Shown: positions 29,264-43,637 of the stretch, piece by piece
How positions within the stretch are numbered: position 1 is the stretch's first letter
Layout of the letters: each line of letters begins with the position of its first letter
NCBI GenBank assembly: GCA_028278265.1
Contig: JANQET010000323.1
Location: 1 to 52,346, forward strand
DNA length: 52,346 bases
Source of the DNA: Myxococcota bacterium
GTDB taxonomy: Bacteria > Myxococcota_A > Polyangia > JAAYKL01
Direction of reading: 5' to 3'
Notes under the pieces: generated by a model
What the model was told of the DNA's origin: nothing
Databases searched by the model: none
What the model saw: the letters and a program-made list of their open reading frames with translations, nothing else
Made by a program: the position numbers and the translations under genes

Positions 29264-30505
29264 TTAAAAGTGGAAGACCCCGGAGAGGCCGAACATGAAG
29301 GAGTTGGTCGCGTACTCGCCGCCGAGCACGCCGGTCTCGGCGTTGTCTTCTACTTCCTCGCCGCCGAATGACCAGTAGCCGCCGAAGTTGATGTCGAAAT
29401 AGACCAGGTGGAGGCCCGTGCCCAGGTGAATCCCGTGGAGCAGGCCGGGGGGCGTGAGGAAAGGCTGGGCGTTCGTTTTCGGCGTGGCCGAGTTGGACAA
29501 ACTGTAGCCGGCGCGCAGGTCGAGCAAGGGGAGGAGCGCGTACTCCACTCCCAGGTGAACGGCCAGCACATTCTTCCAGTTCATCTTCATTTCCTGAGGG
29601 GGCAGCTCGGTGCCGTCCGGTAGAAAGGTCCTAATCGTCATGGTCTCGGCGACCGGCTTGTACAGCGCGAATTTCAAGTCGAGCGCCAACATCAGTTTTT
29701 TGTTCAGCAGGGAGACCGCCGTGCCGAACCGGAAGGTGTGGGGCGCGGCAAACTCGGATCGGGTATCAAACGTCGCCCGCTCCCCAGCCGGGGCCGGGGG
29801 CGGTGCGTTCATCTCGGTGGTGCCTTCGGAGATGAGGTCGATTTTGTTGCGAAAGACAAAGCTGAAGCGCAGCATATCGATCGGCTGGAAAAAGAGGCCC
29901 GCACTCAACCCCTTGAAATTCCAGCCCGACATTTCGGACTCAATTTTGCCCATCATGAAATCGTGAGCCACCATTTGGTTCAACGTGAAGGTGCCCCGCC
30001 AACCGACGCTGACTGCGAGACCGTCGATAATGGTCAGGATGATGGGGGTGTGAAATTCGAGTGATGTGATGGTCTGTTCGATCGACTCGCCCCCGTAGAT
30101 CTCGATGTCCTCGAACTTGGCGCCAAAACCGGCGGTGGGGTACACCGCCGCGGCGAGGATCGGCTTGACCGGCATGTCGTCCCACAGGCGGTAGGCGGCG
30201 CCGAGGAAGAACAGCGGGAATGCGGAGCGGGCGGAATCGATCTGTTCCACCCCTCCGGTCATCGCGGGGAACGGAGCGGTGGCCCGGGGGATGAACAGAG
30301 AGACGTCGAGGGTGGCGACGAACGTCTCCATCTGTTCCAGGCTGGCCGGATTGAAGGCCAGCGCGGCCCCGTCATCCAGGTAGCCGGCACCCGCACCGCC
30401 CAACGCCATGCTCCGGCCGTCGTATTGCGCGGGGAGCTCTGTTGAGGCCCATCCCGCGAGCGGTAAAACGACCGCGATGAGGATGGGGATAAACTTAGAA
30501 ACCAT
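29264..30505 (-). CDS. FadL/OmpP1-type outer-membrane transport protein
   Basis: 413 aa with a signal peptide (MVSKFIPILIAVVLPLAGWA). The start of the mature part, YDGRSMALGGAGAGYLDDGAALAFNPASLEQ, has the FadL N-terminal hatch pattern (GRAxxGGA..ADDASAxxxNPA). Repeated amphipathic strands and a C-terminal aromatic residue (GVFHF) fit a 14-strand barrel. Likely takes up hydrophobic compounds. It lies 143 bases upstream of the motor-helicase operon on the same strand, far enough for its own transcript. A possible divergent promoter lies between it and the next plus-strand gene. Confidence 0.87.
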   Translation of the reverse strand: MVSKFIPILIAVVLPLAGWASTELPAQYDGRSMALGGAGAGYLDDGAALAFNPASLEQMETFVATLDVSLFIPRATAPFPAMTGGVEQIDSARSAFPLFFLGAAYRLWDDMPVKPILAAAVYPTAGFGAKFEDIEIYGGESIEQTITSLEFHTPIILTIIDGLAVSVGWRGTFTLNQMVAHDFMMGKIESEMSGWNFKGLSAGLFFQPIDMLRFSFVFRNKIDLISEGTTEMNAPPPAPAGERATFDTRSEFAAPHTFRFGTAVSLLNKKLMLALDLKFALYKPVAETMTIRTFLPDGTELPPQEMKMNWKNVLAVHLGVEYALLPLLDLRAGYSLSNSATPKTNAQPFLTPPGLLHGIHLGTGLHLVYFDINFGGYWSFGGEEVEDNAETGVLGGEYATNSFMFGLSGVFHF

Positions 30506-30690: not shown

Positions 30691-31242
30691 ATGAAACAGG
30701 TGCGATACAGCACGCGCGGAAAAAGGGGGGCGGTTGGGAGGGCAACCGGAAGGTGGCTGGTTTGCGCCTTTCTGGTTACCGGTTGTACGGGCTCTCAGGG
30801 AAATTCCGCAGCAACCACCGCGGCGATTGAGACGGTGCTGAACGATTGGCACGATGCCGCTTCAAAAGCGGACCAACAGCGCTACTTCGGGCATATGGCA
30901 GCAGAGGCGGTTTTTTTGGGAACGGACGCCAGTGAGCGTTGGACCATGGCGGCGTTTCGCGCCTACGTCGAGCCCTACTTTTCCCAGGGGAAGGGGTGGA
31001 CCTACCGGCCGCACAATCGGTCCGTGATGCTCTCGGCCGATCACCGGCTGGCCTGGTTCGACGAGCAGCTCAGCAACGAAAAATACGGCGAGCTCCGCGG
31101 TACCGGCGTGCTGCGCAAGGCCAAAGGCAAGTGGAAAATCGTGCACTACAGCATGGTTTTCACGGTGCCCAACGGGGTGGCCAAGGCGGTGGTGGAGACG
31201 ATTCGGCGAGGGAGCGAGCAGTCTGGCTCCAGTACCGACTAG
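30691..31242 (+). CDS. SnoaL-like/DUF4440 (NTF2-fold) lipoprotein
   Basis: 183 aa from the ATG at 30691 (GGAGAGG just upstream). The signal ends in a lipobox (CAFLVTGC). The mature part has an NTF2-like fold: VLNDWHDAASKADQQRYFGHMA, AVFLGTDASERWTMAAFRAYVEPYF, MLSADHRLAWFDEQLS, and KAKGKWKIVHYSMVFTVPN. These are the helix and strand marks of SnoaL/DUF4440 proteins with an unknown ligand. The stop overlaps the stop of the convergent TlpA-like gene by four bases. Confidence 0.82.
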   Translation: MKQVRYSTRGKRGAVGRATGRWLVCAFLVTGCTGSQGNSAATTAAIETVLNDWHDAASKADQQRYFGHMAAEAVFLGTDASERWTMAAFRAYVEPYFSQGKGWTYRPHNRSVMLSADHRLAWFDEQLSNEKYGELRGTGVLRKAKGKWKIVHYSMVFTVPNGVAKAVVETIRRGSEQSGSSTD

Positions 31243-31811
31243 CGCGTTAGTTCGCGAATCGCCCGTTCGATAGTGTCGAGGCGTTTCTTCCCGTCGTCGG
31301 CCTTCGACGCTTTTCCCCCAAAAAAGAGCCGCACGCTCCCGTGTCGGTCGACCACGAACAACCGGGGAATTTGGGCACCGACGCCAAAGGCGCGCCGGGC
31401 GGCCCAGGAGCTGTCCCACACCACCGGGAACGACACGCCGAGCCGATCCAAGGCGGCGATCGCATTGCCCCGATCCAGATCAATCGAGACGGCGATGAAC
31501 TTCACCGGGAGATGGCGGATCCTCTGCCAAAGGATCTCGAGCCTGGGCAGCTGTTCAAAGCACGGGGGACAGAACGATCCCCAAAAGTAGACCAGGGTCA
31601 CCTGACCGGAATGGGGTACCGGGAGGCGCTCTCCGAGGTGACCGGAATCGATTCGAATCGTCTCGCCGGCTGCCACGGGCCGATTGAGCAACGGGTGTCG
31701 CTGGGTCAGGAGGGAGGGGGTACAGGAGAGGGCAAAAGAGCAGACGAGAATAAGGGTGAATGGCCGATTTACGGGAAACCCTGTCAGGTGGTTTGTGATG
31801 ATCGTCAACAT
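31239..31811 (-). CDS. TlpA-like thiol-disulfide lipoprotein
   Basis: 190 aa with a lipoprotein signal (LILVCSFALSC). The thioredoxin-fold core has LVYFWGSFCPPCFEQLPRLE, so the active site is CPPC, and later AQIPRLFVVDRHGS with the cis-Pro loop. It is a TlpA/ResA-type periplasmic redox protein; whether it reduces or oxidises is unknown. It lies downstream of the first PstS-like gene on the same strand with a gap of about 160 bases. No cytochrome c maturation genes are present, so the target may be the Cys-rich lipoproteins nearby (inference). Confidence 0.85.
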   Translation of the reverse strand: MLTIITNHLTGFPVNRPFTLILVCSFALSCTPSLLTQRHPLLNRPVAAGETIRIDSGHLGERLPVPHSGQVTLVYFWGSFCPPCFEQLPRLEILWQRIRHLPVKFIAVSIDLDRGNAIAALDRLGVSFPVVWDSSWAARRAFGVGAQIPRLFVVDRHGSVRLFFGGKASKADDGKKRLDTIERAIRELTR

Positions 31812-31969: not shown

Positions 31970-32443
31970 CTAAAACTTGACCTTCAGGACTTTGGTCGGC
32001 CCCTCGTGGTACTTGCTGCGCGCGCAGTATCCGATGGCGCTTTCGAGCTTGAAAACTGCTCGCTGGGAACGGCTGAATTCCGGGGGGGCCGTTACACCGT
32101 CTTTGACCTTTCGCTTTTCCCAATAGTGCTTCTCATCGGTCGGACTCATCCGGAGGAATTTTTTCTGAAACTCAATTCGAATCCCGGAGCCGGACTTGGC
32201 GTTGATCGGCGTCACCTTGCGCCCCATGAAGGTCCCCTTCTTCTTGAGGAAGATAGCCCTGAGCTCTTCGGCGTCGATGGAGTCCGCTTCGAACGACTTG
32301 TTGGCAATGATCACGATGTCGTTGAGCTCCTCAGCCGAGAAGCTGGCTGGGAGTACCGTCACGAGCAGCGTCCCCATCACCAGCGAGAACAGCTTGCACT
32401 TCCTTCTCCGCTCGCAGCGGTTCATTGGTCCATGCTCACGCAT
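31970..32443 (-). CDS. Short PstS-like periplasmic protein, cassette copy B
   Basis: About 157 aa from the ATG at 32443, which overlaps the stop of the porin gene (ATGA); an internal ATG at 32425 is also possible. A signal peptide ends near LPASFSAEE. The core, IVIIANKSFEADSIDAEELR then AIFLKKKGTFMGRKVTPINA, with HYWEKRK and AIGYC later, matches the small PBP-like proteins related to PstS phosphate-binding proteins but is about half their length. It is the third gene of a cassette found twice in the window and resembles the protein at 36500-36949. Confidence 0.75.
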   Translation of the reverse strand: MREHGPMNRCERRRKCKLFSLVMGTLLVTVLPASFSAEELNDIVIIANKSFEADSIDAEELRAIFLKKKGTFMGRKVTPINAKSGSGIRIEFQKKFLRMSPTDEKHYWEKRKVKDGVTAPPEFSRSQRAVFKLESAIGYCARSKYHEGPTKVLKVKF

Positions 32444-33999
32444 CAGAATGACACGACCAACTGGGCGTTCAGCAACTTCAGCGGCCCGCCCCATAGCTCA
32501 CTCTCTGGGACGGTATAGACAAATTCGGTCTTGATGGTGACATATGGCGATGGTTTGAAGTTCACGCCACCACAATAGAAATCGTTGTTATAAGAAGGCA
32601 ACGTGTCGTCCATCTTGGTATGTTCCAACATGAAATAGGGAGTGATCCGCATCCCGCCGGTCAACTCTTTTACAGGTAGTGTCCAGGCCAATAACACGTA
32701 GTAACCCAGACCCAAATAGCTGGCCTGGAACAGCGGCATAGTTGCCGGAGCACCTGACAGTATTTTATCTGGATCGCTGCGTTCTGCCGGTATTCTATAA
32801 TCGACATAGTGCCAGATGAATTCCGACTGAATGCGTACGCCAAATAGCTCGATTAACAGATCGGCAGCTGTGGCATATTCGAAGTAGTTTTCCCATTCGT
32901 CGACAACGAATCTCATTCTGCGACTACTGTCGAGCGAGCCATCCGAATTGAGCCACATTTCCACATGTTTGTGTGTATCGCTGTATTCCCCCAAATACCC
33001 ATAGCCACCGGCGGCGATCGCCACTCTGTCGCCTTCGTAGGACAACCGTAGCCTCAGCCCAACCCCTTTGTTCTCATCGAAATCCAACACCTCCTGAGCC
33101 GGACCTCGACCGTTGGAGACCGTGATCGCATAGTCGAAAAACAGGTCGTAGCGCGGATAAAACCTGCCGTAGACCTGCAGCCCGGTTTGAGCCAAGGGTA
33201 TCATTCGCTTTCTTTGTAAGTATGGCGGAAGAACCGGAATGATTACCGGCGAGCCGTGGTCGGTGTTCCAGATACCATACGGCGTCAGGTAGTAACCTGC
33301 TATTACATTGAACCAATCCAGCGGCGTATAGATCAGCTGTGCCCGTTCAATCATTACACCGCCTGTTTTGTTGATGATATTCTCGGAATAGTCATAGTAT
33401 TCGGTATTTATACGAACATACTCATTGCCCGATAGCTCGGTGTTGCCCAGGTGAGCGATGAAAGGGTGTTCCGATTCAAAGCCGGCGGGCCAAAAGGTAA
33501 ACCGAAGCTCTACCAGTGCTCCGAGCGTCTGGGTCATCTGGCTGGCAAGATACAGGTTGATCTGGGACAACACAAAAGAGCTGTTTGAGGGGACCGAGGT
33601 GTGATAAAAGCTATCTCGCTCAACCAACGTCTTCATAAATTGCAGTTCGAAAAATCCGAATAGCTTGAGTAGTCTACTATCCTCCAAGGCGTTGTCCTCA
33701 ACGGCGGCTAGGGCCTCCTCCTCCTGGAATTCGGTCAGCTCATCGATCTGCTGTTGCTGCCCCTCAAGCTGCCGTTGTTGTGCCTCCAACTGATTTTGTT
33801 GTGCTTTGATCTGCGTTTTGTGTTGATCCAGCTCGCCCTCGATGGCGGACAACTTCTCGGCGACAGTTGGTTCATCCGTTTCTTCGCTTGCCTGTTCTTG
33901 CGCCGCGATTGTGGTAGGTGCTGCCAGCCAGAAAACTATAATCGCGAGTCTCATCGTGGCAGACACCCCGGAGGGCAATTTCCAGTTCATTGTGGTCAT
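32443..33999 (-). CDS. Coiled-coil porin-like outer-membrane protein, cassette copy B
   Basis: 518 aa from the ATG at 33999, which overlaps the stop of the Cys-rich gene (ATGA). A signal peptide ends near TIAAQ. A short periplasmic coiled coil rich in Gln follows (KTQIKAQQNQLEAQQRQLEG), then a barrel of alternating aromatic strands ending in LVVSF with a terminal Phe. Shared blocks with the copy at 36968: LGALVELRFTF, PLDWFNVIAGYYLTPYGIWN, TGLQVYGRFYP, FDYAITVSNGRGP. The family resembles phosphate-selective OprO/OprP-type porins in layout. The ligand is unknown. Confidence 0.82.
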   Translation of the reverse strand: MTTMNWKLPSGVSATMRLAIIVFWLAAPTTIAAQEQASEETDEPTVAEKLSAIEGELDQHKTQIKAQQNQLEAQQRQLEGQQQQIDELTEFQEEEALAAVEDNALEDSRLLKLFGFFELQFMKTLVERDSFYHTSVPSNSSFVLSQINLYLASQMTQTLGALVELRFTFWPAGFESEHPFIAHLGNTELSGNEYVRINTEYYDYSENIINKTGGVMIERAQLIYTPLDWFNVIAGYYLTPYGIWNTDHGSPVIIPVLPPYLQRKRMIPLAQTGLQVYGRFYPRYDLFFDYAITVSNGRGPAQEVLDFDENKGVGLRLRLSYEGDRVAIAAGGYGYLGEYSDTHKHVEMWLNSDGSLDSSRRMRFVVDEWENYFEYATAADLLIELFGVRIQSEFIWHYVDYRIPAERSDPDKILSGAPATMPLFQASYLGLGYYVLLAWTLPVKELTGGMRITPYFMLEHTKMDDTLPSYNNDFYCGGVNFKPSPYVTIKTEFVYTVPESELWGGPLKLLNAQLVVSF

Positions 34000-34427
34000 G
34001 AGCAACTGCATCCGAAGCCAATTGCGGCAGCCGCGTCGTCGGCGTTCATGCAAACTGCCGCGTCGGCGCCTTGTTCCGTGCAGTCGCAGCACTGATAGTC
34101 CCCTGGGCAATCCCCCGCAACACAGTCAAAAATGGTGCAATATCCCGGGTCGTTCGGTGTCAGCGGATTGATGGCACAATAGTCGGCGTCATACGGCGCA
34201 CAATCCGGCTGGTCGACGCACTCGTTGCCGAGGCCGGAAACGCCACCGTCCGTTTCGCTATCCGTCCCGTTAGTTGTGTCCGAGTCGGTGTCGTCCTCGG
34301 CGATTGGCACGCACGATTTGTACGAGCTTGACCATACCAAGTAGTCGGGACAACGGTCCTTGTCTGCGATTTGGCACGCCGGGGTCGACAGTCCGGTGAT
34401 GATGAACAGTGTGAAAGATGCCCTCAT
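33996..34427 (-). CDS. Cys-rich lipoprotein, cassette copy B
   Basis: 143 aa from the ATG at 34427 (TGAGGC upstream). A lipobox-like cysteine ends the signal (TGLSTPAC). The mature part has about 14 cysteines: DKDRCPDYLVWSSSYKSC, a short Asp/Ser/Thr-rich stretch, GLGNECVDQPDC, YCAINPLTPNDPGYCTIFDC and CPGDYQCCDC. The block YC..NP..xxGYCTxxDC..DCPxxYQCCDCT is shared with the cassette A protein. Disulfide-bonded surface domain of unknown role. The gene starts the second cassette after a 298-base gap behind the C69 gene. Confidence 0.75.
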   Translation of the reverse strand: MRASFTLFIITGLSTPACQIADKDRCPDYLVWSSSYKSCVPIAEDDTDSDTTNGTDSETDGGVSGLGNECVDQPDCAPYDADYCAINPLTPNDPGYCTIFDCVAGDCPGDYQCCDCTEQGADAAVCMNADDAAAAIGFGCSCS

Positions 34428-34725
34428 GCATTGCCTCACAGCAGTAGGTTGCCGCTCCTGCCTCAACCCACCGATTGTTTATAGTTCTGCCACCAATATG
34501 GAAAACGGGACTTTCAAGTAATAAGGGTATCGCCAGACAACCACTCGTCAATGTTGTGATGACTTTTTTGGTTCGTCTACCGTCGATAAATTTTGCAGCA
34601 TTTTGCCGCCGATGTATCCCGGCTCCCCGCGTTGCTCGTCAAGAGCGCGCGCCATGCCCGCGCCTTTCGATCCGGGGCCCTCGACGCCCGCGATACGCGC
34701 AGAGTTTATGGACTGTGGTACTGGG
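34428..34725 (-). other. Intergenic region between the C69 dipeptidase and the second cassette
   Basis: No convincing gene is seen. Plus- and minus-strand frames here are poor and lack start signals. It probably holds the promoter for the second cassette, but I cannot point to clear boxes. Confidence 0.4.
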
Positions 34726-36366
34726 TTATTCGCGGTTGTTGGTATACTTGGTGATCGTTTTGTCTCTCAGTTCGATGAACATCTCGGTGACCCGGTTCTG
34801 CAATCCGTTGGCGTACTTGGTGAGTAGGTCCCGCGCGGCCTTGGGATCCCTTTTGTGGAGCTTGAGCGCCTGTTGCTCGATCTTTTTTTGCGCGGCAAAA
34901 ATCTTCTTTTCGAATGGATCTCGGACAGCCCGGACATCCTTGATCACCGCTTGAAATTTCAATTTGGCCAAGTTGTCCACGAAGTCGATCGCCCAGCGGG
35001 CGGATCGATCGTCGTACTTTTCGGGATTGTAGGTGCTGTAGCTGCGGTGCACCGAGCTGTTGCCCGCGTAAATCGGGACGTAGGGACTGAAGTAGGGATT
35101 GTCCAGGTAGACCCAGTAGACCCCGCCGATAGAGTTGGGCAGCCAGCCCCGCAGCTGGCAGACCATGCCGTAGTGGCCCCGGTGACGGGCGATGGGGCGA
35201 CGGTAGGTGAGCTGCAGCAATTCCCGCAGGTCCTTGCCCGGAAAGGGCGTGGCCAGGGGGCTCTTCTGCAGTTGACCCTTTTTGTTGGGCACCAGCCACT
35301 GGGGGCTGGCGGTCATGTCGTAGATGGTGCCCTCGAAAGTGGATCGCTGGAAGGCGATGATGTCCCGCAGGGAAATTTTCTTGTCCGGCTTGACCGAGAA
35401 GGGGTAGATGGAGAGCGGTTCGACGGTTTGAAAATACTGATTCAGTCCCTTGTACCGATCCTTGCCGAGGGATCGATCCGGCCACTTGGCCTGTTTCTTG
35501 GCAAAGGTTTGATGAAACAGCCAGAACCGCCCGGTGGCGAACTCCACGGGGAGGGGGGCATAGGCGTTCTGCCAGATAAACGGCTGGCCCGAGGAGGGAT
35601 CGTAGTAGCCCCGCTCGACCGCTTCGCTGCGATAGTTCGAAGAGACCAGGAAGTTCTTCTCATCCTTGGGATCGATTTCCTTGATGATGCTCCAGTTGGG
35701 GATCATCGTCGCCTCGTCGTCGGGCAACCGTTGGGCCGCCCAGATCGCCCCGGGTTTTTTGCTTTTGAGGGACCACTTGGGGCCCACACCGAATACCTCG
35801 AAGACCCAAGCTTCGTTCGGGTCGGCGATGACCAGCGCTTCGGAGCCGTCGCCGCTGGACGGTAGAAATCCGTAGGTGGTCATCAGGGAGCCGATAAACT
35901 CGACCGCCTCCCGCGCCCGTTTGTGGCGTTCGAGAGCGAAGATCATCGCCTGCTCGACGGTCATGATCTGCTTGCCGGTCTTGCGCGTGACGGCGAGCGC
36001 TTTGCGCTGCACGGTGGTGCTCTCGGCGATGGCCAGCTGGTGCTCGTTGATGTGGGAGTAGGCGGACTGAAAGTAGGTATAAGTGCGCGAGACCTGGGGA
36101 ATGTAGCCCAAGACATCGCCGTTGTCATTCAGCGGTCGCTCGGCATCTTGAATACCGAAGTAGACCGGGGCTTTGGAGCCGGGCTTGAATGTGCGACCGG
36201 GAATCACCACGATTCGCGAATCAGGGCCCGCGTCCGTATGGGAGATGAGTACCGAACCGTCGGTGGTCGCCTTTTTGCCCACCGCCACAACTGTGCAGGC
36301 GTCAATGCTCGGCGGCACCAGCGAGAGTGTGAGACAAACTATCGCGATAATTCTGACATGGTCCAT
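34726..36366 (-). CDS. C69-family dipeptidase (exported Ntn hydrolase)
   Basis: 546 aa from the ATG at 36366, chosen for GAGGAAGG upstream and a signal peptide (IIAIVCLTLSLVPPSIDA). Cleavage after Ala exposes Cys24 in ACTVVAVGKKAT, the N-terminal nucleophile of C69 dipeptidases, so export and self-maturation are linked. Other family marks: GSVLISHTDAGPDSRIVV, PNEAWVFEVFGVGPKWS, WAAQRLPDDEATMIPN and FLVSSNYRS. A charged helical C-terminus (about residues 470-546) lies beyond the usual domain. It sits between the two copies of the porin cassette on the same strand and may supply amino acids or trim envelope peptides. Confidence 0.88.
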   Translation of the reverse strand: MDHVRIIAIVCLTLSLVPPSIDACTVVAVGKKATTDGSVLISHTDAGPDSRIVVIPGRTFKPGSKAPVYFGIQDAERPLNDNGDVLGYIPQVSRTYTYFQSAYSHINEHQLAIAESTTVQRKALAVTRKTGKQIMTVEQAMIFALERHKRAREAVEFIGSLMTTYGFLPSSGDGSEALVIADPNEAWVFEVFGVGPKWSLKSKKPGAIWAAQRLPDDEATMIPNWSIIKEIDPKDEKNFLVSSNYRSEAVERGYYDPSSGQPFIWQNAYAPLPVEFATGRFWLFHQTFAKKQAKWPDRSLGKDRYKGLNQYFQTVEPLSIYPFSVKPDKKISLRDIIAFQRSTFEGTIYDMTASPQWLVPNKKGQLQKSPLATPFPGKDLRELLQLTYRRPIARHRGHYGMVCQLRGWLPNSIGGVYWVYLDNPYFSPYVPIYAGNSSVHRSYSTYNPEKYDDRSARWAIDFVDNLAKLKFQAVIKDVRAVRDPFEKKIFAAQKKIEQQALKLHKRDPKAARDLLTKYANGLQNRVTEMFIELRDKTITKYTNNRE

Positions 36367-36499
36367 GGATTGCCTTCCTCTGTAGTGAGCTCGCTCCCTC
36401 AGGCGAGATCGACTCAGAGTCGAGCGGATTGTGTACCAAAAGTCAACCAGTCCGAGGTTCATTCCCGCCGCCGAACGAAACCGCCGCGAGGGGCGCTGC

Positions 36500-36949
36500 C
36501 TACTCAGCCGGAAATGTGGCCACTATCTTGACAACTCCTTCGATGTAGTCTTTGCGGAGCACGTAGGTAATCGATCCTTTGAGACGAAACGCCGCTTTGA
36601 GCACATCCTTCAACTCAGGGGGGTCTTTCAGACCGCTGCGCATTTTTTGATCCTCCCAGTAGTCCTTCTCCTTGGCAGCGGTCATGGCGAGGACAATCTT
36701 TCGAAAACGATTCCTCAGCTCGGGATTGCCTTTTACATGCAGCGGGATGATCTTTTGACCTCCGGGCCAGGTCTGTCGTTGTTTGAGAAAGATCTGCTTC
36801 AAATCATCCTTGGTAATCGTATCGATCGGCACAGTGGAATTGGCCACGATGAGTAGGTCCAGGGGATTTTCCGCCCGAGCCTCCCGACCGACAATGCCGA
36901 GTGCCAAGGACAGAATTAGCAGGGAGAAGATTCTCATTGATGTTGTCAT
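36500..36949 (-). CDS. Short PstS-like periplasmic protein, cassette copy A
   Basis: About 149 aa from the ATG at 36949, ten bases from GGAG; the ATG at 36958 is too close to the ribosome site but cannot be excluded. A signal peptide (FSLLILSLALGIVGREARA) is followed by LLIVANSTVPIDTITKDDLK, QIFLKQRQTWPGGQKIIPLH, DYWEDQKM and GSITYVLRKD. This is the same half-length PstS-like domain as at 31970-32443. It follows the porin with a gap of about 20 bases. A periplasmic ligand-binding or scaffold role is inferred. Confidence 0.78.
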   Translation of the reverse strand: MTTSMRIFSLLILSLALGIVGREARAENPLDLLIVANSTVPIDTITKDDLKQIFLKQRQTWPGGQKIIPLHVKGNPELRNRFRKIVLAMTAAKEKDYWEDQKMRSGLKDPPELKDVLKAAFRLKGSITYVLRKDYIEGVVKIVATFPAE

Positions 36950-36967
36950 GGTATTCATTCTCCCCGG

Positions 36968-38437
36968 CTAAAACGAGACGGCGATCTGGCCCGCGATAGA
37001 TTTGATCCCATCCCCCATCCCCTCGTGTAGGGGCTTGGTCACGCCCGCATCCAGCTTGAGCGTGATGTAGCGAGACGGTGCGAAGTTCAGTCCGCCGATA
37101 TAAAACACCGAGCGGGAAAAATCGGCCGTATCATCATATGAGGAGTACTCGAAGAGGAAGTAGGGTGTGAGGGCCATCTCTCCCAGGAGGGGGATGCGAT
37201 AGGAGAGCAAGCCGTAGGCCGCGGTGCCGATGTAGCTCGGCATGTAGATATCGGCCATGCCCGTTCCACCGGCAAAGAGCCCGACCGAGAAATCTCTGGC
37301 AGGGCTCTTCTCCATTGCGGTTCGCTGCCAGATATACTCTCCTTGGAGCTTGAAGCCGAAGATCTCAATCGTCAAATCTGTGGAGACCACGTATTCGTCG
37401 TACTTCATCATCATCGCGGTCTCGACCTTGATCGGCTCCTCGGGGGTAATTTCCGGATCCAACCCGACGACGTGCAACACCATTTTCGAATCCGAAACCT
37501 GTCCCATATAACCGTATCCGCCCAAGGCGATGTTGAAATTGTCGGCCTGATAGGTGAGCTTCAGCTTGAGCCCGACCGCCTTGTTGTCGTCGATATCCAC
37601 GATCTCGTTGATCGGACCGCGGCCATTGGAAAGGGTGATCGCGTAGTCAAGGAAAACCCGTTGGACCGGGAAAAATCGGCCAAAGACCTGTAGCCCGGTT
37701 TGCGCCGGGGTTAAGAACCCGATGGTTTGGGTGAAGGGCACCCGAGTGGTCAACCGAACAGTGGACGCGTGGTCCACGTTCCAGATGCCAAACGGGGTGA
37801 GGTAGCGACCGGCGATGACGTTAAACCAGTCCACCGGCGAGTAGGCCATGTGTGCGCGCTCGATTCTGACGCCCCCTAACTTTGATCGCTCGACCGAATA
37901 GAAATCCTGGATTTCTGTGTCGACCCGCTCAAACGCTACCCCCGGATAGTTGAAATACTCGTATTCCAGAATTTTTCCCTGGGGGGCGAAAGTGAACTTC
38001 AGCTCGACCAGGGCGCTCAATGTCTCGGTCATCTGGCTGCTCACATAGAGGTTGACATTGGAGAGGAGGAAGGTCGACCGATCGTGGACGAACAGCTTGT
38101 AGGGGCTGTTTTCTTCCATGAAGATGTTGAAAAAGGTCAAATCGAAAAAGCCGTAGACATTGAAGTATTTTTCAAATCCATCGACGTCGGCGGTCATCTC
38201 CTCCAGGGCGGCCAATTCTTGCTCCTCCAGCTGGGCTTCCAGGGCCTCGATGCGTTTCTTGTTCTCCGAGTCCCGCGCTTCGATCTCCTCTCTCATTTCC
38301 CGGCGCAGCTCTTCCTTGAGCGCTTCGATGTCGATCTCCTGCGCAGGCGTGGCCTTCTCGGTCTCGTCCTCCTGTGCTAGGGTGGTCAGGGGAAGAAAGC
38401 TGGTGCAGAGCACAATTAATAGAACGTTGTGTTTCAT
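36968..38437 (-). CDS. Coiled-coil porin-like outer-membrane protein, cassette copy A
   Basis: 489 aa with a signal peptide (LLIVLCTSFLPLTTLAQ). A Glu/Arg-rich coiled coil at about residues 30-75 (EALKEELRREMREEIEARDS) precedes a barrel domain of amphipathic strands ending GQIAVSF. Blocks shared with the copy at 32443: LSALVELKFTFAP, PVDWFNVIAGRYLTPFGIWN, TGLQVFGRFFP, LDYAITLSNGRGP. The coiled coil is charged here but Gln-rich in copy B, so the two have diverged. It is the middle gene of the cassette. Confidence 0.85.
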   Translation of the reverse strand: MKHNVLLIVLCTSFLPLTTLAQEDETEKATPAQEIDIEALKEELRREMREEIEARDSENKKRIEALEAQLEEQELAALEEMTADVDGFEKYFNVYGFFDLTFFNIFMEENSPYKLFVHDRSTFLLSNVNLYVSSQMTETLSALVELKFTFAPQGKILEYEYFNYPGVAFERVDTEIQDFYSVERSKLGGVRIERAHMAYSPVDWFNVIAGRYLTPFGIWNVDHASTVRLTTRVPFTQTIGFLTPAQTGLQVFGRFFPVQRVFLDYAITLSNGRGPINEIVDIDDNKAVGLKLKLTYQADNFNIALGGYGYMGQVSDSKMVLHVVGLDPEITPEEPIKVETAMMMKYDEYVVSTDLTIEIFGFKLQGEYIWQRTAMEKSPARDFSVGLFAGGTGMADIYMPSYIGTAAYGLLSYRIPLLGEMALTPYFLFEYSSYDDTADFSRSVFYIGGLNFAPSRYITLKLDAGVTKPLHEGMGDGIKSIAGQIAVSF

Positions 38438-38452
38438 TTCTTGGCGCCCCCT

Positions 38453-38926
38453 TTATTCACAGGTACAACCGAACCCGCCAACCAAAGTTGCGTCATCATC
38501 GGTAAGGCAGGCGATTTCCTGAGCCACCGCTTGACTGGCGGTGCAATCACAGCACTGGTAGCCGGTGGGGCAATCCGGTGCGGCGCAATCGAGCAACGTG
38601 CAATACCCGCTTCCCGTGGTGGGGTTGACGGCGCAGAAGCTCGCCTCCAACCCCGCACAAGCGCTGTCGTCCGTACACTCCGTGCCGAGCCCGTCAATTC
38701 CATCGGAATCGCTTGCGCTGTCCGAATCAACCCCGGCATCCGGAGGGGGAGATGCACAGAGGAGCGGGTTTGTCGGATCGTACACGTGTCCTTCGAGACA
38801 GCAGGACTCAATTTCCGGTACGTAGAAAAAACCGCTGGGACACCTGTCTTCGTCGTCGATCGTGCAGCTGGTGGACGCGACAATTGCAACGAGCGCGATT
38901 GACCATCCGAATAGTTGTATTCGCAT
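38453..38926 (-). CDS. Cys-rich lipoprotein, cassette copy A
   Basis: 157 aa from the ATG at 38926, with AGGAGG six bases upstream. The signal ends in a lipobox (ALVAIVASTSC). Cysteine pairs follow: DEDRCPSGFFYVPEIESCC, a short Asp-Ser stretch, GLGTECTDDSAC, SFCAVNPTTGSGYCTLLDC and CPTGYQCCDCTAS. It is clearly related to the protein at 33996-34427 and is followed after 15 bases by the porin gene. Confidence 0.77.
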   Translation of the reverse strand: MRIQLFGWSIALVAIVASTSCTIDDEDRCPSGFFYVPEIESCCLEGHVYDPTNPLLCASPPPDAGVDSDSASDSDGIDGLGTECTDDSACAGLEASFCAVNPTTGSGYCTLLDCAAPDCPTGYQCCDCTASQAVAQEIACLTDDDATLVGGFGCTCE

Positions 38927-39249: not shown

Positions 39250-41589
39250 TTACTCGGCAGCAACGGGTAAGCGGATGGTGAAGCGGGTCCCCTCTCCAGG
39301 TGTGCTGGTGACCCCGATGGTTCCGTTGTGCTCTTCGATTATTTTTTGGGAAATGGACAGGCCCAGGCCGGTGCCCGATTCTTTGCCCTTGCTGGTGTAG
39401 AATGGCTCGAAGATCTGGTTCAGGTTCTCCTCGGCGATCCCACAACCGTTGTCTTCGACGATAATCTCAACCTGGCTCGGCTCGTCTTTGCACCGGCGGG
39501 TGATCAGTCGCAGCCAGGAATCCTCCTTGTCCGCTGCTTGTCCAGCGTTGATCACCAAATTGATCAGCACCTGCTCTATTTTGCCGGCGCTCATCTTCAC
39601 CGGCGGTAAATCATCGGCGGTCTCCACGTCGAAGCGCTTGACCATTTTGCGCACCTGCTTGCCGATCAGCGTCATCACGTGGTCGATCACCCCGTTGATC
39701 TGTTGAGGTGAATAGGACGGCGCCTCATCCAACCTCACGTAATTCTTGAGCTCGGAGACGATGCCAGTGATGCGCTCTGACCCATGGGCCATGTTCTCCA
39801 GCAATTTGAACAGGTCCTCGCGGAACAGCTCAAACGGCATATTCAACACCGTCAGCTTTGGGTCTTCGGCCAGATGGTGTTCCAGCATGGGTTGAATCGC
39901 GTCGATATACTTCTTGAGAATGGGCAGATTGAAATAGATGAAGTTGTTCGGATTGTTGATTTCATGGGCTACTCCGGCGATGATCTGGCCCAGGGAGGCC
40001 ATCTTCTCCGCGCGAAACATCTGCTGTTCGGTCTGCTTGCGCTTGGTCACGTCGAATGCAGTGGAGATTACCGCCTCGTCGCCGTCAACCTCGATCCGCA
40101 TGCCGGCCACCTCGAAACAGCGTCCACTTGGCTCACAGAGTTCATAGCGAAACTGGTCATCACCCCGTTCACTAGCTTCGGACCAGGCCAGCTCGGCCGC
40201 GTGGAAGGCCTCCGGGGCCAGCACGTCCTTGAGCGGCGTGTTCTCGAGCTCAACCCAGCTCCGTTGTGAGTAGTCGATAAACGCCTTGTTGGCGTAGACG
40301 ATTCGGCCCTTCTTGCTGATCGCGATATGGGCGTTGGTCGAGTTGGCCAGGGTGCGAAACTTGCGCTCAGACTCCTGCAATGCCGCACCAGCGGCCTCCC
40401 GTTCCCGGCGCAGGATGCCCATCCGGTCGCCGAGAGCGAGGGTGAGCAGAATTGCGTTGGCAGCGCAGCCCCCTTGAAAAAAGTACACTTCGAGCCACCC
40501 CATGTCTACCGGCAGGGCAAACAAGAAGATGCAGATGCTGAAAATACCCCAGGCGGCCAGATGAAAACGGGCCGCGCGAAAACCACGGCGAAGCCCCTGA
40601 ATGCCCGGTAGGATAGTCGCCAGCGGAGTGCCCAAGCCGAGCACCATGGTGAACCACATGAGAAAACCAGGACTACAGAACGGCAACAGGACCAGCCCGG
40701 CCACACCACCGGCCATGTAACCCAACAGGAGCTTGTCCAATCCGGGAAATTGCGCCTTGGTGTTCAAAAATGAGCGGGTGAATGCTCCGGAAAAGAAGAC
40801 AATTAAACTGATCATCACCACGTGGAAGTAAACCCAGGTCAAAAAGAGGGGGGTGGGAAAATAGGTGTCAAAGAAGCCGTTCTGACCCAACGTGTAGATA
40901 ACGAGCATGGTCTGATAGGCAAAACAGAGCAGGTAACTCTTGTCCCTGAGGTAGAGGAACATCACCAGGTTGATCAACACGAACAACCCCATCAACCCGT
41001 AGAACACACCGAACCAGAACAGGAGGCGCTTTCCTTCTTCCTTACTGGCCTGTGCGGTGAGAACACAAAACGTGAGATAGATGCCGCTCTCGTTCTCCAC
41101 GCGAACGTAAAAGGTCTGAGCGCCCCCGGCGTCGCTGAAATGGAGTGGTGCGACGATGGGGAAAGTGACTTCGCCGATTTCCCGGTATCCCCGTCCGATG
41201 ACCCGCCACCCGTCATCGAGGCGCGTGAAGAGCTTGAACGAGTCCATCACTCGGGTCCGGGTGTCGAGCACCCAGTGTCGGTGATCACCCCTGACGGCCG
41301 AGTTGTCGACGGTGAAGCGGAACCAGACCGCGCCACGGGGATCATTTATCGAGCCGGGTTGACCTGGCAATCGTTCGAATCGGTCGGAGAGGGGGGCGGT
41401 GGATACGTCGTCTATCGACCAATTCCGGTCCGGATCGTGCAACATCTCGATGGCGCCGTCCGGACCGTAACCATCGAGCCCCGGCTCGAGTGTGATCACG
41501 GCGTCGGCGAGTACCGGATGGGCGAACAGCCACACTGAAAACGCGATTGTGATATTGAAGTAGAGAGTACGTTTTTTAGTCGTCGTCAT
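39250..41589 (-). CDS. 7TMR-DISM sensor histidine kinase with PAS domain
   Basis: 779 aa. A signal peptide (residues 1-28) is followed by a periplasmic 7TMR-DISM extracellular domain (about 30-185; WFRFTVDN..., FYVRVENESG), then seven membrane helices (about 185-400). A PAS domain comes next (about 415-530; FRTLANSTNAHIAISKKGRI). The HisKA domain has MASLGQIIAGVAHEINNPNN with the phospho-His, and the HATPase domain has LINLVINAGQAAD (N box), VEDNGCGI and GTGLGLSISQKIIEEHNG. No response regulator is adjacent, so the partner is elsewhere. DISM domains often sense sugars or other small ligands. It is about 320 bases upstream of cassette A on the same strand, which is typical of a PBP-porin-kinase linkage. 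Confidence 0.9.
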   Translation of the reverse strand: MTTTKKRTLYFNITIAFSVWLFAHPVLADAVITLEPGLDGYGPDGAIEMLHDPDRNWSIDDVSTAPLSDRFERLPGQPGSINDPRGAVWFRFTVDNSAVRGDHRHWVLDTRTRVMDSFKLFTRLDDGWRVIGRGYREIGEVTFPIVAPLHFSDAGGAQTFYVRVENESGIYLTFCVLTAQASKEEGKRLLFWFGVFYGLMGLFVLINLVMFLYLRDKSYLLCFAYQTMLVIYTLGQNGFFDTYFPTPLFLTWVYFHVVMISLIVFFSGAFTRSFLNTKAQFPGLDKLLLGYMAGGVAGLVLLPFCSPGFLMWFTMVLGLGTPLATILPGIQGLRRGFRAARFHLAAWGIFSICIFLFALPVDMGWLEVYFFQGGCAANAILLTLALGDRMGILRREREAAGAALQESERKFRTLANSTNAHIAISKKGRIVYANKAFIDYSQRSWVELENTPLKDVLAPEAFHAAELAWSEASERGDDQFRYELCEPSGRCFEVAGMRIEVDGDEAVISTAFDVTKRKQTEQQMFRAEKMASLGQIIAGVAHEINNPNNFIYFNLPILKKYIDAIQPMLEHHLAEDPKLTVLNMPFELFREDLFKLLENMAHGSERITGIVSELKNYVRLDEAPSYSPQQINGVIDHVMTLIGKQVRKMVKRFDVETADDLPPVKMSAGKIEQVLINLVINAGQAADKEDSWLRLITRRCKDEPSQVEIIVEDNGCGIAEENLNQIFEPFYTSKGKESGTGLGLSISQKIIEEHNGTIGVTSTPGEGTRFTIRLPVAAE

Positions 41590-41846
41590 CGTGCCATCCG
41601 GCCATCTCCGGTCGCTCTCAGTCCGCAGGCCACACCTGGACTCCTATCGGTGCACTATCCTGAACCGGCCCGAACCGGCCCGTAACCCCGCTGGTTTCGC
41701 AGTGTAGTCCCTGGGGGCGGGATGATCAAACATCCGGAATTCACGGACGACTCAGGTGAAAGGCTAGCGGTACGGTAGTTTTACACTATCCTTTTTGATT
41801 CCGATTCATTATGATTCGGTGGAGCTGCACAAAAAGGAGGTTTGAC

Positions 41847-43637
41847 GTGGAAATGCGTATTACTTGGATATTGGTCATCAGTGTCGTGATTGGGAGTTGT
41901 GGAGGGGTGAACAACGTGGACACCGACGCCGGTGGTGGGGATGGGGACACCGATACGGACACCGATACCGGTGGCGACACAGATACGGGAAGCGGGGATG
42001 CGGACACCGATTCGGACGCGGACTCGGATACAGACGCTGATACGGACACGGATGCGGATGCGGATACCGATACGGATGCGGATTCGGATACCGATACGGA
42101 CGCCGATGCAGATACGGATACGGACACAGACACCGACACTGACGTGGACACGGATGCGGATACCGATACGGACACCGATACTGATACCGATTCAGACACC
42201 GATTCAGACACCGATACGGATACGGACGCGGACACCGACACGGACACCGACAGCGATACGGATTCGGACACGGACACCAGCCCGGTGGGCCGTGTTTACT
42301 ACGTGGACAAGGACAACCAGTTCGGCAATGGTGCTGACAACGACTGGCCCGGGACGATGGATCAGCCCAAGCTGAATCTGCAACACCGCTGGTTTCAACG
42401 GGATTTGGAACCCGGAGATACAGTCATAATTCGACAGGCTACTTCGTACGGAGCCGTGCGGCTCTATGACTCGAGCAGCGGTACGGTTGACGATCCGGTG
42501 GTGATCAAGGCCTGGCCCGGAGAGACCATAGTGCTCGACGCGGCAATTGTGCCCACTGAATATGCGGTGAGAATGCTCGACGGTGCGTCAAATATCGACA
42601 TACAGGGGCCGATGACCATCACGGGGCACCAATACTCCTATGAGACCCGGGAAAACAATACCAACATCAAGCTGAGCAACGCCGAAATCCACAATTGTGA
42701 AAACGGGCCGATTCTCAACGGCTTGATCGGCGGTGAGTTCAAGAATCTGTCGATCCACGACCTGTCCGTCAACGGTTTTCAGCTCGAGGGTCAGGGGAGC
42801 GCCACCAGCGGACCTCCCTGCGAGAATATTCTCATTGAAAACGTAGACGTTTACAACGTGGACGACGGCCTGCTGCCCAATGCCAGCAATGCGGACGGGT
42901 TTCACACCTATGGGGGCGAGAACATCACGTTCATCAATTGCGACACCTGGGGCAATGCGGAAGATGGCTTCGATTTGAATGCCAATGCGGTGATGGTCAA
43001 TTGTACATCTCACGACAATGCCGGTTCCGGATTGAAGGTTTGGCGGAGGTCACAGGACAGCTGGGCCGATAAGACGGTGACCGTGATCAACTCGATCTTC
43101 GCCGAGAACGGCTATTCCACGGACGCGACCAGTCCCGGAGTCAGGGTTAGCAACGGCGCCGGGCTCAATATGTATCACTCGGTGGTTTCCGGGGGGTACA
43201 AAGAGGGGATTTTCGCCCGGTTCACGATGAGCGATGTCCCGTATCAGGAGGGGGTTCCCTACCAGGCGGTCAAGGTGTACAACACTATCATCGCCAACAC
43301 GGATGACGGCGCGGGCATGCGCGCCAGTGTCCACCCGGTCCAGGGGGTGTTCCTCGAAGCGGATTACAATCTCTATTTCAATAATCCGCAGGATGTGCAG
43401 GACTTCACCATGGGCTCCAATTCGCTCACCGGCCTGGATCCACTCTTCGTCAACGTCGCCACCCAAGACTTCCACATCCAGGATGGCGGCGGGGCAGTCA
43501 ACGTGGGAACCGACCTGCTGGGGACCGACACCCTCTACGATCAATACGGCCAGCTCGATTACGACGGTGTGTCGCGCCCGGAAGCCGGGGGCATCGACAT
43601 CGGCGCCTTCGAGTGCGTGGGGTGTACGACCCCCTGA
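41847..43637 (+). CDS. Right-handed beta-helix lipoprotein with Asp-Thr linker
   Basis: About 596 aa from the GTG at 41847, six bases from AAAGGAGG; the ATG at 41853 is an alternative. Lipoprotein signal (TWILVISVVIGSC), then about 120 residues of Asp-Thr/Ala/Ser dipeptides. The C-terminal ~440 residues are a parallel beta-helix of the pectate-lyase/polysaccharidase kind: RVYYVDKDNQFGNG, PGDTVIIRQATSYG, DDPVVIKAWPGETIVLDA, repeated coils such as ITFINCDTWGNAEDGFDLNA and VMVNCTSHDNAGSGLKVW. It ends GGIDIGAFEC, the usual end of such DUF1565-like helices. A surface polysaccharide lyase or adhesin is likely; no catalytic residues can be assigned with confidence. Confidence 0.87.
   Translation: MEMRITWILVISVVIGSCGGVNNVDTDAGGGDGDTDTDTDTGGDTDTGSGDADTDSDADSDTDADTDTDADADTDTDADSDTDTDADADTDTDTDTDTDVDTDADTDTDTDTDTDSDTDSDTDTDTDADTDTDTDSDTDSDTDTSPVGRVYYVDKDNQFGNGADNDWPGTMDQPKLNLQHRWFQRDLEPGDTVIIRQATSYGAVRLYDSSSGTVDDPVVIKAWPGETIVLDAAIVPTEYAVRMLDGASNIDIQGPMTITGHQYSYETRENNTNIKLSNAEIHNCENGPILNGLIGGEFKNLSIHDLSVNGFQLEGQGSATSGPPCENILIENVDVYNVDDGLLPNASNADGFHTYGGENITFINCDTWGNAEDGFDLNANAVMVNCTSHDNAGSGLKVWRRSQDSWADKTVTVINSIFAENGYSTDATSPGVRVSNGAGLNMYHSVVSGGYKEGIFARFTMSDVPYQEGVPYQAVKVYNTIIANTDDGAGMRASVHPVQGVFLEADYNLYFNNPQDVQDFTMGSNSLTGLDPLFVNVATQDFHIQDGGGAVNVGTDLLGTDTLYDQYGQLDYDGVSRPEAGGIDIGAFECVGCTTP
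41917..42279 (+). repeat. Low-complexity Asp-Thr/Ala/Ser coding repeat (beta-helix lipoprotein linker)
   Basis: Tandem GAY-ACN/GCN/TCN hexamers, about 360 bases, encoding the linker of the beta-helix lipoprotein. Its antisense gives a spurious 163-aa Ser-Val frame. Boundaries are approximate. Confidence 0.85.

Follow-up and report, generated by a model that had tools for sequence, protein, structure and literature searches.

A cassette of Cys-rich lipoprotein, OprP-like porin and half-length PstS-like protein recurs in Myxococcota

The porins OprP and OprO (Pfam Porin_O_P), selective for phosphate and pyrophosphate, are 16-strand barrels characterised by an arginine ladder and anion selectivity, and PstS, whose partners are PstCAB, has a two-domain PBP fold of about 250-300 aa; its phosphate loop R-x-x-x-S-G-T we take to be Arg135, Ser139, Gly140 and Thr141 of the E. 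coli protein. TraA and TraB are an outer-membrane exchange pair of Myxococcus, with PA14 and MYXO-CTERM in TraA and an OmpA domain in TraB. In Proteobacteria (Alteromonas, Pseudoalteromonas, Caballeronia, Saccharobesus) a short substrate-binding protein adjoins a gene annotated as porin or hypothetical. These short proteins are of the same family as the one described below (profile E 2e-25 to 4e-30), but the porins are of another subfamily, of which that from Saccharobesus alone reaches our profile (E 2e-14), and a Cys-rich lipoprotein is absent. No paper on the proteobacterial pairs and no description of the three-gene module reported here was found in the literature searched. On Alteromonas plasmids (loci L150 and L152), a short protein of this kind and a hypothetical barrel-like gene lie beside a type IV CRISPR csf operon.

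The window, by which we mean the whole stretch of 52,346 nucleotides analysed (contig JANQET010000323.1 of a Myxococcota bacterium, assembly GCA_028278265.1), carries two cassettes on its minus strand. Copy 1 (38926-36500) starts with a Cys-rich lipoprotein (CRL; 38453..38926) of 157 aa with lipobox Cys21, followed after 15 nt by the porin (POR; 36968..38437), which has a signal peptide, and after a further 9 nt by a half-length PstS-like periplasmic protein (SBP; 36500..36958) of 152 aa. Copy 2 (34427-31970) encodes a CRL of 143 aa with lipobox Cys18 (33996..34427), a porin (32443..33999) and an SBP (31970..32443), and here starts and stops overlap at both gene junctions: the porin ATG at 33999 overlaps the CRL stop (ATGA), and the SBP ATG at 32443, with an alternative start at 32425, overlaps the porin stop (TGATG). 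The SBP of copy 2 has a weak match to PBP_like_2 (E 0.022). A sequence-only reading of the window had described two tightly spaced cassettes of the same order on one strand, a PstS-like protein of half the normal length, and blocks shared by the porins (DWFNVIAG-YLTP-GIWN) and by the Cys-rich proteins (YQCCDCT); the six minus-strand genes, the length (about 150 aa vs about 250-300 aa) and the blocks are all confirmed. The alignment of the two copies that it called for gave, by BLASTP, 57/151 identities (38%, E 3e-28) for the CRLs, 195/507 (38%, E 2e-113) for the porins and 47/139 (34%, E 2e-30) for the SBPs. Homology between the copies holds for all three genes, far above chance.

Copies of the module are spread across uncultured Myxococcota, often beside sensor kinases or chemoreceptors. 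Loci L038-L076 were picked by CRL and are therefore biased for it, and loci L078-L149 were picked by the porin motif alone. Among the 32 porin-selected loci of other Myxococcota with sufficient flanks, an SBP lies within 1.5 kb of the porin on the same strand at 30 and a CRL at 28, so the three-gene linkage supposed from the window is found elsewhere. Four gene orders hold all three genes at these porin-selected loci; the orders recorded are CRL-POR-SBP, POR-SBP-CRL, SBP-POR-CRL, POR-CRL-SBP and CRL-SBP-POR. The common ancestry of the Cys-rich proteins survived profile comparison by hhalign, in which the CRLs of family f1 matched two groups from other Myxococcota (E 3e-16 and 6e-18). In five loci from other phyla, mostly metagenome bins that are possibly misassigned (Chitinivibrionales, Poribacteria, Dependentiae, an unnamed bacterium and Candidatus Uabimicrobium), porin and SBP are adjacent in each and no CRL was found. 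In a phylum-wide set selected by SBP, strongly profile-matching porins are accompanied by a CRL in 5/5 loci, three of which were already in the porin-selected set, and many diverged porins have an SBP without a CRL; within the Myxococcota the CRL therefore goes with a single porin subfamily. A search of the phylum with the porin, in which four candidates were scored per genome, gave a count of at least 14/333. Porin and SBP are the core of the module, and the CRL is an addition of the Myxococcota that is not obligatory even in this genome.

Profile searches of this genome gave 19 SBP and 12 CRL genes, and 17 porins were seen in the loci read. The porins are distributed as two in the window, one each on contigs C251, C367, C112, C341, C395 and C503, three in tandem behind a single CRL on C305, and six in porin-SBP pairs without recognised CRL (C48, C409, C27, C473, C228, C173). 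Altogether these are 17 porin-SBP pairs, of which nine have a CRL beside the porin; an SBP lies beside all 15 porins with sufficient flanks. Two SBPs (C451, C98) and three of the 12 CRLs (C302, C109, C83) stand alone. The sequence-only reading had proposed to ask of other genomes whether the porin is invariably accompanied by the Cys-rich protein; already in this genome it is not. Within the same family, SBPs are found in 12/14 genomes, from 1 to 19 in each, and in genome G005 a tandem of three complete cassettes is seen (L059). In a genome of this family, L100 is an elaborated cassette with about four CRL domains before one porin and three SBPs after it.

The cassette had been called duplicated, and this stands as paralogy and falls as local duplication. 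Each of the three gene trees places copy 1 closest to the cassette on C251, whose porin is 56% identical to that of copy 1, vs 38% for copy 2; in closeness to copy 1, copy 2 comes only 4th in the CRL tree, 6th in the porin tree and 14th in the SBP tree. A recent or local tandem duplication is thus rejected and the copies are old paralogues. Distances between cassettes correlate from gene to gene more strongly than in within-genome label shuffles, with r 0.74 vs 0.54 for CRL-POR (0/2000 shuffles), 0.60 vs 0.48 for POR-SBP (0/2000) and 0.59 vs 0.48 for CRL-SBP (12/2000), values to which the tandem triple of G005 contributes. The cassettes were therefore inherited largely as units; a few SBP placements disagree.

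The sequence-only reading had also linked the module to a sensor, and this finds support at the level of the module. A periplasmic N-terminal domain without Pfam name is shared by proteins encoded within 5 kb of 17/32 cassettes of other Myxococcota (a raw count). These proteins are mostly histidine kinases, several of them hybrids of the HisKA-HATPase-REC-Hpt type. The sensor domain, which is about 120 residues long, lies between two predicted membrane helices in hybrid and other kinases near cassettes (L114, L121, L122, L127 and others) and is a candidate new domain family. Chemoreceptor genes adjoin the cassettes L063 and L077 and, at L144 and L146, the porin-SBP pairs of Poribacteria and Dependentiae; the pair of Uabimicrobium has a Ser/Thr kinase as neighbour, and two of the six proteobacterial pairs read have a signalling neighbour, an EAL protein in Caballeronia and a chemoreceptor in a Pseudoalteromonas. 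The shared sensor domain lies near cassettes at 2/25 loci of family f1 and at 0/15 in this genome, in which a genome-wide search, run without positive control, found none; signalling here would therefore need unlinked or different sensors.

For the kinase of the window this link was not supported. The 7TMR-DISM sensor histidine kinase upstream of copy 1 (39250..41589, minus strand; 7TMR-DISM_7TM 9e-29, HATPase_c 1e-27), the C69 dipeptidase between the cassettes (34726..36366, minus strand; PF03577, E 3e-49) and the TlpA/ResA-like thioredoxin (31239..31811, minus strand; Redoxin 8e-15) were each identified correctly, as Pfam confirms. The sensor part of the kinase has no match near the other cassettes examined, and the kinase was rejected as a conserved partner; it is a possible, non-conserved partner of the module, and it may be an unrelated neighbour because the shared sensor domain was not found in this genome. 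The C69 dipeptidase recurs, among the cassettes examined, at one further porin-SBP pair of the same genome (L156, 35% identity) and is probably a neighbour outside the module, of which it was rejected as a part. No TlpA homologue lies beside any other cassette examined, and the suggestion that this thiol protein services the disulfides of the CRLs as a conserved partner had to be given up. A clustering of recurrent neighbours gave for the most part shadow frames of the porin. Two further genes of the window may be mentioned. One (41811-43637, plus strand) encodes a secreted lipoprotein-like protein in which a long Asp-Thr/Asp-Ser/Asp-Ala repeat linker, of the same kind as the CRL linkers, is followed by a right-handed beta-helix (PF13229, E 7.5e-10). 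The other (29264-30505, minus strand), near the cassettes, encodes a FadL/TodX-like outer-membrane protein (PF03349, E 5e-10).

Detection or uptake of something at the cell surface is the probable task of the module. It is read most economically as an outer-membrane module for sensing or acquisition, with interchangeable inner-membrane outputs, to which the Myxococcota added the CRL; to the view that the cassette serves sensing or ligand acquisition in the outer membrane we give slightly less than an even chance. A role in uptake only, which we regard as rather doubtful, has to be weighed first. The porin would then be a selective channel, and the SBP would carry or buffer an anion, for instance phosphate, in the periplasm and so feed a separate transporter, with the CRL capturing the substrate outside. 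The structure of the porin speaks for this: the AlphaFold2 model of copy 1 (pLDDT 83.5) has an N-terminal helix (37-83) and 16 strands (counted by hand from DSSP), its best Foldseek match is OprP (2o4v, E 1.9e-11, TM 0.5) and OprO comes third. The likeness to OprP and OprO ends with the barrel, since identities are only 10-13%, TM-scores 0.5-0.6, the porin is paired with SBP and CRL, and its barrel part is net acidic with 32 K+R vs 46 D+E in a count of net charge over the whole barrel; this charge would speak against an anion channel of this kind. Porin_O_P (PF07396) is matched by 3/36 porin members below the curated cut-off, with a best E of 0.023. The most conserved stretch of the porin, G-R-F-L-T-P-Y-G-I-W-N-x-D-H, follows strand 5 and, according to our reading of the topology, would be at the place of the classical constriction loop L3.

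Similar considerations apply to the SBP. Its family profile does find PstS (4exl, E 1.5e-4), in line with uptake, but the match covers only part of PstS (positions 36-96, about 60 residues), and where PstS has its phosphate-binding arginine, 8/99 SBPs have Arg and about 92% another residue. Ser/Thr is found at the serine position in 76/99, the Gly position is variable and the Thr position is mostly Leu, whereas R54, F57, W73, P85 and Y104 of the SBP alignment are nearly invariant. Because the canonical arginine is replaced in most SBPs, a phosphate role for the module is not supported, and since other residues are nearly invariant, binding of another ligand or of a protein is likely. The subset of cassette neighbours scanned contained no recognisable ABC permease or ATPase, in contrast to PstS with its PstCAB partners. 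The SBP as the PstS of a transporter was rejected by its length and the lost residues; two full-length PstS-like proteins are encoded elsewhere in this genome. Some catabolic neighbours (a GH5 cellulase at L062, a D-serine dehydratase-like protein at L043 and the C69 peptidase) would suit uptake, which leaves the recurrent sensor neighbours without explanation.

That SBP and CRL are accessory subunits of the porin, acting as gate, plug or assembly factors and having no role in sensing, is unlikely. The constancy of the pair, which is also what the module has in common with known clusters of a porin, a PstS-like protein and a sensor (15/15 flanked porins here, 30/32 in other Myxococcota), the tight spacing with the overlaps in copy 2 and an N-terminal porin helix that could dock a periplasmic partner would all be expected from such subunits. 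The stand-alone SBPs and CRLs and the repeated pairing with kinases and chemoreceptors would not.

The CRL consists of the lipobox Cys, a small N-terminal Cys module, an acidic or low-complexity Asp/Ser linker and a C-terminal Cys-rich domain, with nine further invariant Cys besides the invariant lipobox Cys in 39 members. Across the 39, no Pfam family matched consistently, nor did copy 1 have a consistent NCBIfam match, and the confident model of copy 1 (pLDDT 88.6) has no fold match in the PDB; Dickkopf, EGF or another known Cys-rich family was rejected on these grounds. Variants are seen: on C473 (L158:3364-4041, plus strand) a different Cys-rich lipoprotein, which shares the N-terminal D-x-x-R-C module of the CRLs and has another Cys-rich body, directly precedes an SBP-porin pair, and this suggests exchangeable heads. 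In a stand-alone CRL (L060:8234-8995, plus strand) a long linker of Glu-Gly repeats is combined with a tandem of two nearly identical Cys-rich domains, and related genes of an unknown family directly upstream of divergent stand-alone CRLs (L066:4913-5380, L068:4320-4808, L047:9970-10434) are possibly a second CRL pairing. It is very unlikely that the CRLs, multiplied and divergent as they are, serve as adhesins or in self/prey recognition on a porin base by analogy to TraA/TraB, with which the module would share a disulfide-rich surface protein and a barrel partner: the lipid anchor, flexible linker, disulfide-rich head and up to 12 CRL matches per genome would fit, but the CRL is a small lipoprotein, no PA14, MYXO-CTERM or OmpA-type match was found in the module proteins with Pfam and NCBIfam, identity to copy 1 spans 27-56% for the CRLs, the same range as for the porins (31-56%), and there is therefore no sign of special CRL diversification, and the constant SBP partner would be left unexplained.

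For the sensing or acquisition module that we prefer, the following course of events may be envisaged. The lipid-anchored CRL, presumably exposed at the surface on its flexible Asp/Ser/Thr-rich linker at or near the mouth of the porin, would capture or screen the ligand, which the 16-strand OprP-like porin, probably a trimer, would admit past the constriction-loop motif P-F/Y-G-I-W-N-x-D/E-H. The periplasmic half-PstS, possibly docked on the N-terminal helix of the porin, would be a ligand-responsive adaptor and signal to an inner-membrane histidine kinase or chemoreceptor, whose gene adjoins the cassette in many Myxococcota and in this genome presumably lies apart from it. The 17 porin-SBP pairs would represent a set of channels or receptors with different specificity. 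Two findings count against sensing: most loci of the family to which this genome belongs are without adjacent sensor, and the kinase in the window carries another sensor domain. It is tempting to go further and speculate that CRL, porin and half-PstS form a hitherto undescribed tripartite envelope complex, in which the CRL sets the specificity of the porin and the half-PstS reports its occupancy to kinases or chemoreceptors, and that this complex was multiplied into a repertoire of surface receptors in this family; this is possible, and we propose it tentatively.

The CRL is a lipoprotein family without Pfam or NCBIfam model that is tied to a porin subfamily and a half-PstS in much of the Myxococcota, and the sensor domain that recurs beside the cassettes has no Pfam name either. 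If the module senses, it would account for the short proteins annotated as 'phosphate ABC transporter substrate-binding protein' without adjacent transporter, and it would provide a testable way for a channel of the outer membrane to pass information to kinases and chemoreceptors of the inner membrane.
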